Shown here: piece by piece, positions 3,622 to 5,701 of the stretch | How positions within the stretch are numbered: position 1 is the first letter of the stretch | How the letters are laid out: the number at the start of each line of letters is the position of its first letter | Assembly (NCBI GenBank): GCA_021789095.1 | Contig: JAJYJX010000141.1 | Location: 1 to 5,701, forward strand | Direction: 5' to 3' | Length of the DNA: 5,701 bases | Origin: a bacterium | GTDB lineage: Bacteria; JAMCPX01 | Position numbers and translations under genes: made by a program | The notes under the pieces: model-generated | What the model was told of the DNA's origin: nothing | Database searches by the model: none | Seen by the model: only the letters and a program-made list of their open reading frames with translations

Positions 3622-3648
3622 GTCATTCCACACTTGATGCGGAATCCA
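3622..3648 (+). repeat. Palindromic dispersed repeat, copy 4
   Basis: GTCATTCC...GGAATCCA with stem ATTCCACA/TGCGGAAT, which has one unpaired C/A position. Apart from that base and the terminal G/A it equals the - strand reading of copy 3 (2826-2853). It sits 31 bases after the thioesterase stop, in the same relative position to a gene 3' end as the copies behind purM. Confidence 0.75.
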
Positions 3649-3780: not shown

Positions 3781-4011
3781 ATGGAAATAGACAAGGCTTA
3801 CGAGCGGAAGATCGGGGTAATCGAAAGGGAGATCGGTGACAAGCTGTTTTTCCTGCTGTGGTTCATGACATTGACCCAGCTTGTCCTTATTATCTGGGAA
3901 TGGATACACCTTGTCTGCATTCAAGGGAAGGGCAAAACCAAAAGATGCATATACGCGTCCTGTCAGAAAACTGCTCGAACCCGGTCTGATCAAGCGTTCG
4001 GGCAACGGTAG
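3781..4011 (+). CDS. Small putative membrane protein, unrecognised, probably with a foreign or frameshifted C-terminus
   Basis: I do not recognise a family. The 76-residue product starts MEIDKAYERKIG, a charged N-terminal helix (residues 1-21). A hydrophobic segment, about residues 22-47 (LFFLLWF...QLVLIIW...), is long enough for one membrane span. The remaining ~29 residues are basic and cysteine-containing with no recognisable pattern. The near-consensus AAAAGGAGG supports real initiation. The C-terminal third overlaps, in another frame, a stretch that reads like the end of a winged-helix protein (3875-4036), so this reading frame is probably not original past about base 3920. It may be a relic: a small gene whose 3' part was replaced by a deletion or insertion. 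The other possibility is a genuine short membrane peptide with a spurious tail. Expression is plausible, function unknown. Confidence 0.4.
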   Translation: MEIDKAYERKIGVIEREIGDKLFFLLWFMTLTQLVLIIWEWIHLVCIQGKGKTKRCIYASCQKTARTRSDQAFGQR

Positions 4012-4036
4012 AAACGTGACCTACACGGCGGGATAA
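3875..4036 (+). pseudogene. Fragment resembling the C-terminus of a winged-helix protein, no start
   Basis: In a frame different from the 3781 ORF, codons are open from after the TGA at 3872-3874 to the TAA at 4034-4036, without a start codon or ribosome binding site. The last ~30 residues, including YTRPVRKLLEPGLIKRSGNG and then RNVTYTAG, have the look of a recognition helix followed by a beta wing, as at the end of many small DNA-binding domains. The first part of the open frame is not convincing. The most economical reading is the 3' remnant of a lost regulator fused to the 5' end of another small gene. The fold call rests on pattern only, and no specific parent family is claimed. Confidence 0.3.
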
Positions 4037-4144: not shown

Positions 4145-4154
4145 AAAAGGAGGT
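4145..4154 (+). promoter_or_regulatory. Strong ribosome binding site upstream of a leader mini-ORF
   Basis: AAAAGGAGGT lies 35 bases before the ATG at 4189, too far to serve it directly. It is 6 bases before a TTG at 4161. The gene at 4189 has only GAGAAG (4175-4180) at a suitable distance, and an in-frame TGA at 4174 prevents any upstream extension. Confidence 0.5.
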
Positions 4155-4160
4155 TTGTCA

Positions 4161-4187
4161 TTGCGTCCCGGAATGAGAAGTATATAA
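4161..4187 (+). CDS. Possible 8-codon leader peptide coupled to the downstream gene
   Basis: TTG-CGT-CCC-GGA-ATG-AGA-AGT-ATA-TAA, initiated from the AAAAGGAGGT at 4145-4154 and ending one base before the ATG at 4189. Such spacing would let a terminating ribosome re-initiate on the next gene, setting its translation level. The peptide itself has no recognisable feature. The alternative is that the ribosome binding site is left over from a decayed gene. The TTG start and the tiny size keep confidence low. Confidence 0.25.
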   Translation: MRPGMRSI

Positions 4188-4188
4188 A

Positions 4189-4494
4189 ATGGAACCTGTA
4201 TTATCAGTAAACAAAGTCTCCATTAGACTAACCGAAGAAAGATGGTTACATATAACAGAGGAGCACTCTGAAATGGCAGGATATTATTTTGAGACAATGG
4301 AAACTGTTTCAAGCCCTGATGCTGTTTATGCAGGTAAGTCGGGAGAATGTATTGCCTTAAAACGGATAGCTACCAATAAATCAATAGTTGTTGTATATAA
4401 AGAAATAAGTAGCGAAGATGGTTTCGTTATAACTGCATTTTTGACAAGCAGAGAAAAGCAGTTTGAAAGGAGGGTCAGACTATGGCCACATTAG
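4189..4494 (+). CDS. Small protein of a BECR/PBECR-like putative nuclease family; candidate toxin
   Basis: The 101-residue product belongs, by recall of its pattern, to a widespread family of ~100-residue proteins. Its hallmarks are IRLTEERWLHITEEH near the N-terminus (residues 12-26), SSPDAVYAGKSGE (41-53), a KSIVVVYKE strand (64-72) and DGFVITAFLTSR (77-88). Conserved polar positions that could be catalytic are R13, H21, H26, R59, Y70, T82, T86 and R88. The helix-then-sheet order with a C-terminal ITAFLT strand fits the BECR (barnase-EndoU-colicin/RelE) nuclease fold that I associate with PBECR-type domains; this assignment is inference. The gene is AT-rich: three 60-base lines counted by hand (4201-4260, 4321-4440) hold 61 GC of 180, against 62 of 120 in two ftsZ lines. 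This points to acquisition. It overlaps the next gene by 13 bases, so both are one operon. No RNase activity is shown by sequence alone. Confidence 0.6.
   Translation: MEPVLSVNKVSIRLTEERWLHITEEHSEMAGYYFETMETVSSPDAVYAGKSGECIALKRIATNKSIVVVYKEISSEDGFVITAFLTSREKQFERRVRLWPH
4466..4474 (+). promoter_or_regulatory. Ribosome binding site of the DUF2283 gene, inside the upstream CDS
   Basis: AAAGGAGGG lies in the last codons of the 4189 gene, with 8 bases from GGAGG to the ATG at 4482. This is much stronger than the site of the upstream gene. More translation of the second protein than of the first is thus expected, as is often the case for antitoxins. Confidence 0.75.
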
Positions 4495-4724
4495 AAATAA
4501 GTAAGCTTTTGAGTATAGTTCCAAATCTTATACAAATACCCTATAAGAACATTTGGTATAGCTATGATGCGCAGGCCGATGTCCTTTACCTGAACTTTAA
4601 GAAACCAAGCCATGCGGACGACAGTGAGATGACCGATGACGATGTAATCATCCGCTATGAAAAAGGCGAGATAATAGGGATTACCATATTGAACGCAAGT
4701 AAAAGAGGGCAAAAAGCAGCATAG
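4482..4724 (+). CDS. DUF2283 domain protein, candidate partner or antitoxin of the preceding gene
   Basis: An 80-residue protein. Residues 26-73 match DUF2283: YSYDAQADVLYLNF (26-39), an acidic stretch DDSEMTDDDVIIRY (46-59) and GEIIGITILNAS (62-73). This small beta-rich domain is common in bacteria and often sits next to small toxin-like or nuclease-like genes; its biochemical role is not established. The first ~25 residues (MATLEISKLL to IPYKN) form an extra N-terminal segment that could contact a partner or RNA; that is a guess. The start codon lies within the upstream gene and is fixed by a strong ribosome binding site at 4466-4474. No helix-turn-helix, ribbon-helix-helix or membrane segment is visible, so it would not look like a DNA-binding antitoxin. 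The family call is firm; the pairing with the 4189 product rests on overlap and shared transcription. Confidence 0.8.
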   Translation: MATLEISKLLSIVPNLIQIPYKNIWYSYDAQADVLYLNFKKPSHADDSEMTDDDVIIRYEKGEIIGITILNASKRGQKAA

Positions 4725-4802
4725 AATATACTGCCTTCAAATACCCCAGGGGCGGTCCACCTACCGCAGAGTGCCGTGCCGAACGTCCGTGTGTCTCTAC
4801 CT

Positions 4803-5050: not shown

Positions 5051-5701
5051 ATGGCACGCAAGGTAAAGACTGCTAAAAAACAGAACGGCAACGGCGCAAC
5101 CCTTGGGTTCGAAGAAAAATTGTGGCAGGCTGCGGACAAGCTGCGCAACAACATGGACGCAGCCGAGTACAAACACGTTGTTCTTGGCCTTATCTTTCTG
5201 AAATACATATCAGACGCCTTCGAGGAACATCAAGCAAAGCTTGCCGAAGATAAAAAGAGTGGAGCAGATCCAGAAGACCGTGATGAATACATGGCTGCGA
5301 ATATCTTCTGGGTACCCAAAAAAGCCCGCTGGACATACCTTCAAGCCAATGCAAAACAACCCAGCATAGGGAAACTCATTGATGATGCCATGTTTGCTAT
5401 CGAGAGCGACAACAAGGTACTGAAAGGTGTTTTGCCGAAGACCTATGCACGCCAGGAACTCGACAAGCAGCGGCTCGGCGAGCTGATAGACCTTATCGGT
5501 ACTATAGGCATGGGCGACAAAGAGAACCGTTCAAAAGACATTCTCGGCCGTGTTTATGAATATTTTCTTTCCGAGTTTGCCAGTGCAGAGGGCAAAAAAG
5601 GCGGCCAGTTCTATACGCCGCGATGTGTAGTCCAGACGCTTGTCGAGATGCTTGCGCCGTATAAAGGCCGCGTATATGACCCGTGCTGCGGCTCAGGAGG
5701 C
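5051..5701 (+). CDS. hsdM: Type I restriction-modification DNA methyltransferase subunit HsdM, N-terminal part (3' end outside window)
   Basis: HsdM is the adenine-N6 methyltransferase of a type I system; with HsdS it methylates the recognition site, and with HsdR it forms the restriction complex. The frame is open from the ATG at 5051 to the window end (217 codons). It runs off the edge without a stop. Residues ~19-60 ([23 protein letters not shown], then [15 protein letters not shown]) are the HsdM N-terminal helical domain. The catalytic-domain entry is [20 protein letters not shown] followed by [16 protein letters not shown]. Motif I, the SAM-binding DPCCGSGG, is at the very end of the window. 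The catalytic NPPF-type motif IV and the stop lie beyond it. TAG at 5045-5047 is in frame, so no longer start exists. No Shine-Dalgarno lies at normal distance; AGGAGGT is 21 bases away inside a hairpin. GC content is similar to ftsZ, unlike the AT-rich cassette upstream. Confidence 0.95.

Follow-up and report, generated by a model that had tools for sequence, protein, structure and literature searches.

The 5,701-nt stretch of DNA analysed here (the window) carries two small overlapping genes, A and B, which probably form a small, mobile, type II-like toxin-antitoxin module in toxin-first order, with A as an RNase toxin and B as a member of a new antitoxin family. Two-gene toxin-antitoxin modules with a BECR toxin are already known as a kind; what appears to be undescribed is this antitoxin family, this subfamily of toxins and their overlapping, toxin-first layout. 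The preliminary description of this DNA had proposed much of this reading, and its suggestions of a BECR fold, pairing with DUF2283, unequal translation and toxin-antitoxin-like evolution have held, whereas the defence region that it drew around the pair and the adjacent methyltransferase is not supported as a rule. DUF2283, a family so far without assigned function, thereby gains a testable one, and BECR toxins gain a widespread predicted antitoxin type.

Organisation and translation signals

The cassette and its signals comprise the following features, each given with its basis.

4189..4494, + strand: gene A, ATG start, 101 aa; predicted BECR-fold RNase toxin related to PBECR/DUF4258 (open reading frame, AlphaFold2 model, fold comparison, conservation)
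4482..4724, + strand: gene B, ATG start, 80 aa; DUF2283, predicted antitoxin (open reading frame, PF10049 match)
4482..4494, + strand: overlap of A and B, 13 nt (sequence)
4468..4473, + strand: ribosome-binding site of B, AGGAGG, within the A coding sequence (sequence, duplex energy)
4161..4187, + strand: possible 8-codon leader open reading frame with TTG start and AGGAGG at 4148-4153 (sequence)

The overlap of 13 bases is thus as first reported. The GC content of A (37.3%) and B (39.9%) is low compared to ftsZ (50.8%), purM (51.6%) and hsdM (49.9%), with neighbouring genes at about 50-56%; the first gene is AT-rich relative to its surroundings as had been said, although the earlier figure of about 34% was slightly low. 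Predicted pairing with the 16S tail (anti-Shine-Dalgarno duplex) amounts to -12.7 kcal/mol for B and -4.1 for A, confirming a far stronger ribosome-binding site on the second gene, and the site of B exceeds that of A in 36 of 45 loci (Wilcoxon p=4e-5). One qualification comes from the leader (TTG CGT CCC GGA ATG AGA AGT ATA TAA), which has a properly spaced AGGAGG of its own and a stop 1 nt before the ATG of A. Translation of A may therefore be coupled to the leader, and its output may exceed what the weak site implies. The leader is absent 5' of A in the two nearest relatives, L068 and L081.

Gene A as a predicted BECR-fold RNase

The AlphaFold2 model of A, built on an alignment of 44 relatives, has high confidence (pLDDT 94.5, pTM 0.87) and shows two helices followed by four main strands. 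Candidates from the PDB were collected with Foldseek and re-aligned by VIA-align 2, and the first 15 rows of the VIA list are all BECR toxins (BrnT, RelE, YoeB, HigB and CdiA-CT) at Z 4.9-7.8, values below 8 that taken singly are not decisive since they can reflect a common arrangement. The closest are 7vd7 (Z 7.8, rmsd 3.4, 84 residues), whose title says only toxin-antitoxin complex, BrnT 3u97 (Z 7.4, rmsd 3.2, 77 residues) and CdiA-CT 7m5f (Z 7.1, rmsd 2.7, 83 residues). By element order, with N-terminal helices ahead of a sheet of 4-5 strands as in BECR toxins, and by these 15 matches, the model places A in the BECR-fold superfamily, and the assignment draws on the agreement of this uniform list with independent sequence matches of its relatives to PBECR2, DUF4258 and PBECR3, all of which occur among family members.

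The one meaningful Pfam match of A itself is to PBECR2 (PF18810), at 22.1 bits and E=1.9e-4, which is under the gathering cut-off of 27.1 bits; the profile fits some relatives more closely (best E=1e-7). The Pfam search gave no match of A to DUF4258 (PF14076; cut-off 25 bits) at E<=1, while 7 of 48 relatives match that family at E<=0.01. Filing A as PBECR2 or as DUF4258 was rejected on these grounds. As its PBECR2 match lies only under the cut-off, A is set apart, from its sequence, in a predicted sister family near DUF4258/PBECR that is neither PBECR2 nor DUF4258 proper. In the BFVD collection, A matches a phage PBECR-like minor capsid protein at E=2e-5. Searching by sequence for solved relatives returned nothing meaningful for A or B, nor for a generic DUF2283 protein or a paired DUF4258-like protein.

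Residues conserved in the 44-relative alignment are Arg13, Trp19, His26, Pro43, Gly78-Phe79, Ile81-Thr82-Ala83 and Thr86. His26 (43/44) lies at the end of helix 16-25 and Thr82 (44/44) in strand 77-86. In the 80-locus set described below, invariance of FxITA is partly an ascertainment artefact, because those loci were found with a motif covering D77-F84; T-A-[YF] persists also in the pattern-free set. The PBECR active site combines a His in an N-terminal helix with a C-terminal Thr or Ser, and Arg replaces the His in one family (PMC5512222). His26 and Thr82 fit this site by position and are candidate active-site residues of A, and Arg stands at the position of His26 in one relative (L193).

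The DUF2283 protein B

The second gene is a DUF2283 gene, as originally assigned (PF10049, E=3.4e-16, 59.6 bits, above the gathering cut-off of 23 bits). The model of B has moderate confidence (pLDDT 75.8), and no clear PDB relative of it was found. Its fold neighbours, the N-terminus of YtpR (Z 4.5, rmsd 1.9, 52 residues) and CdiI 7vmc (Z 3.9), are only weak matches and were set aside as relatives; the NCBIfam YtpR model matches B at E=0.065. Pfam recognises no DNA-binding domain in B, of which the N-terminal 20 residues are modelled with low confidence and unassigned.

Pairing of A and B across prokaryotes

A tblastn search of plasmids found a relative of A in a Leptospira noguchii plasmid, followed by a DUF2283 gene that overlaps it by 8 nt, and the same arrangement in cyanobacterial plasmids of Synechocystis and Chondrocystis. 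A motif scan of 84,980 species genomes yielded 80 A loci from Cyanobacteria, Nitrospirota, Chloroflexi, Desulfobacterota, Latescibacterota, Verrucomicrobia, other bacteria and several archaeal groups. A DUF2283-like reading frame begins just before the end of A in 72 of the 75 scored loci, the three exceptions hitting a contig end, and 51 of the 72 relatives measured have an offset of exactly -13. A pattern-free profile search placed the A family in 40 of 386 genomes, and B occupied the overlapping position in all 29 loci read from it, very divergent copies of A included. The pairing with DUF2283 suggested earlier is therefore far beyond chance, as all complete loci examined repeat its order and overlap. 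A conserved partnership of two small neighbouring genes on one strand is also what type II toxin-antitoxin modules present. Distances of A and B correlate (Mantel r 0.83), as would be expected if the pair moves together. Because the gene pair travels together across distant bacteria and archaea, DUF2283 is a strong candidate antitoxin family, widespread and so far undescribed.

DUF2283 genes in general

How often DUF2283 genes lie directly downstream of such proteins, a survey proposed at the outset, was determined from the family at large. DUF2283 is matched in 106 of 386 genomes, and 89 loci were read, giving 83 DUF2283 reading frames. A small BECR/DUF4258-like reading frame stands directly upstream on the same strand in 59 of the 83, a count whose profiles were partly built from those loci, and downstream in one and on the opposite strand in none. 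Two independent counts weigh more. Pfam puts 29 of 54 proteins upstream of DUF2283 in DUF4258, and coordinates of Pfam and profile matches place DUF4258 or A upstream of 47 of 150 DUF2283 genes, with none downstream and none opposite. In profile-profile comparison, the DUF4258-like proteins paired with DUF2283 match the A family (probability 96.4, E=1.3e-9) and also a third group (EWC...IHNAF; probability 97.8, E=7e-13).

From these observations, it is an evenly balanced question whether DUF2283 supplies the antitoxins for a whole superfamily of small BECR RNases (the A family of the window together with the DUF4258-like and EWC/IHNAF groups), through a neutralising domain that does not bind DNA. 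If true, this would amount to a major toxin-antitoxin class not yet described, present in more than a quarter of the 386 prokaryote genomes sampled. For 24 of the 83 DUF2283 genes the BECR neighbour was undetectable, so DUF2283 may have other roles as well.

At two loci, the DUF2283 gene lies directly downstream of another kind of gene in place of the BECR protein, a HepT-like RNase in L092 and a reading frame that is PIN-like by eye in L156, which suggests partner exchange by DUF2283. In L199 (369-1725, - strand), a 452-aa open frame carries the A domain at its C-terminus, and DUF2283 is still next.

Evolutionary behaviour

DNA similarity of the window extends over 4186-4720 compared to L068 and over 4201-4730 compared to L081, in both cases the two genes and nothing else. 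As DNA homology is confined to A and B, the pair itself is the unit of exchange. Estimates of dN/dS against the same relatives, about 0.09-0.11 for A and about 0.04 for B, are rough as synonymous sites are near saturation, and they indicate purifying selection on both genes. The occurrence of A in the family of the host is sporadic, and in the 9-genome phylum of the window, A itself is found only in the genome of the window.

Decay of the pair is directional. Seven loci (L034, L035, L086, L115, L200, L201 and L203) retain an intact B while their A is interrupted, frameshifted or deleted, and the reverse occurs in one (L191). In L115, the last codons of A are retained together with the ribosome-binding site of B and an intact B. 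Sequencing errors could account for some of the frameshifts in A, but not readily for their direction, nor for deletion. Such a bias, together with the asymmetry in translation, is the signature to be expected where a toxin is neutralised by its partner, and the toxin-antitoxin-like pattern that had been anticipated is thus supported.

Proposed mechanism and alternative explanations

From its fold and the conserved His26 and Thr82, A would be a single-domain, metal-independent BECR-fold endoribonuclease which, when free, would cleave cellular RNA (mRNA or tRNA) and stop growth. B would be made in excess from the strong ribosome-binding site inside the 3' end of A, and, as the obligatory pairing suggests, this excess could bind A and block its RNase site. 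Loss of B, for instance with loss of a carrier element, would then free A, leading to RNA cleavage and growth arrest. Type II antitoxins mostly carry a DNA-binding domain that gives autoregulation, which is usual and not universal. As B has no recognised domain of this sort, autoregulation of the pair, if any, would differ from the usual type II scheme.

Any two-subunit enzyme could show such obligatory pairing and such strong purifying selection, and A and B could instead form an obligate complex of nuclease and accessory subunit in housekeeping or regulatory RNA processing rather than in addiction or defence. The best structural hint for DUF2283, the YtpR N-terminus, comes from a tRNA-binding protein family and points the same way. 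A housekeeping pair, however, would not be expected to be as patchy as the A family and absent from family relatives, nor to be carried on plasmids, exchanged as a cassette and left with B after the loss of A, and we consider such a complex unlikely. The toxin-antitoxin reading could also hold in another form, with B as antitoxin and A as a BECR-fold toxin working by other means than RNA cleavage, such as a ParE-like action on DNA gyrase. BECR-fold toxins include gyrase inhibitors (PMC11980606), and ParE chains are among the weaker VIA rows for A. ParE toxins lack the catalytic residues of BECR RNases (PMC11980606), whereas A keeps both His26 and Thr82, and the closest folds to A include the RNase toxins BrnT and CdiA-CT, which makes a toxin of this type very improbable.

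That A is what remains of a phage PBECR protein, degenerate or domesticated, next to an unrelated B can scarcely be credited, even though PBECR domains are known from phages (PMC5512222) and the BFVD matches of A are to phage capsid-associated proteins. The two genes are intact and under purifying selection, and their pairing across bacteria and archaea already contradicts it. No relatives of A were found in the phage collections searched or, by a pattern-limited search, in IMG/VR, and a phage origin of A was rejected accordingly.

Relation to known systems

One parallel is the type II system BrnT-BrnA, which is likewise toxin-first and whose BECR-fold RNase toxin is among the closest PDB folds to A. 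BrnA is a DNA-binding antitoxin, whereas B is a DUF2283 protein without a recognised domain of that function. The phage BECR nucleases PBECR2 and PBECR3 (PF18812) share with A the BECR fold, the N-terminal-helix His and the C-terminal Thr (PMC5512222). The PBECR2 members found are mostly larger reading frames of 184-869 aa, with one of 141, and align confidently with A over a short stretch only, whereas A is a stand-alone protein of 101 aa with DUF2283.

Gerdes 2025 (PMC11980606) counts DUF4258 among the BECR-fold toxin families, giving its target as unknown and citing no references for it. The DUF4258-like group paired with DUF2283 resembles A in its small size and ITxY strand and likewise precedes DUF2283. 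DUF4258 as described in the same source has antitoxin-first order and MqsA fusions, in contrast to the toxin-first A-B pair, and DUF2283 follows none of the top 60 strongest DUF4258 matches. UPF0175/COG2886 antitoxins (PMC2701414) are encoded just upstream of the A-B pair in the Leptospira plasmid, but are absent from the window and most relatives and show no sign of relation to DUF2283. Among the main texts of openly available papers that were searched, no paper naming DUF2283 was found. The single literature match for PF10049, as a calcineurin-like phosphatase (PMC6733907), was discarded as apparently a misprint for PF00149.

Genomic surroundings

The hsdM fragment of the window, which starts at 5051 and runs to the end of the contig, does represent a true type I methyltransferase. 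Of more than 100 other loci, only 2 (L043, L191) have HsdM-like genes in the vicinity of the pair, another DNA methyltransferase adjoins it in L005, and other neighbours vary freely. These cases are too few for a general rule linking the pair to restriction-modification, and a defence-region link to hsdM was rejected as not recurrent.

In the Leptospira plasmid locus L002 (2690-3004), the UPF0175 gene overlaps the start of A by 4 nt, and ParB and VapC genes adjoin; UPF0175, A and B could represent a three-gene variant. A conserved third gene upstream was rejected, as it is not general among the loci. Upstream of the cassette, the window holds a small reading frame at 3881-4036 ending in RKLLEPGLIKRSGNGRNVTYTAG; by eye it resembles the tail of a winged-helix protein and is perhaps a gene remnant. 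Further upstream, two intergenic arms of a 27-nt inverted repeat (2827-2853 and 3622-3648) are 96% complementary and resemble a dispersed intergenic repeat, and a 38-nt match also occurs at L008 (1485-1522).
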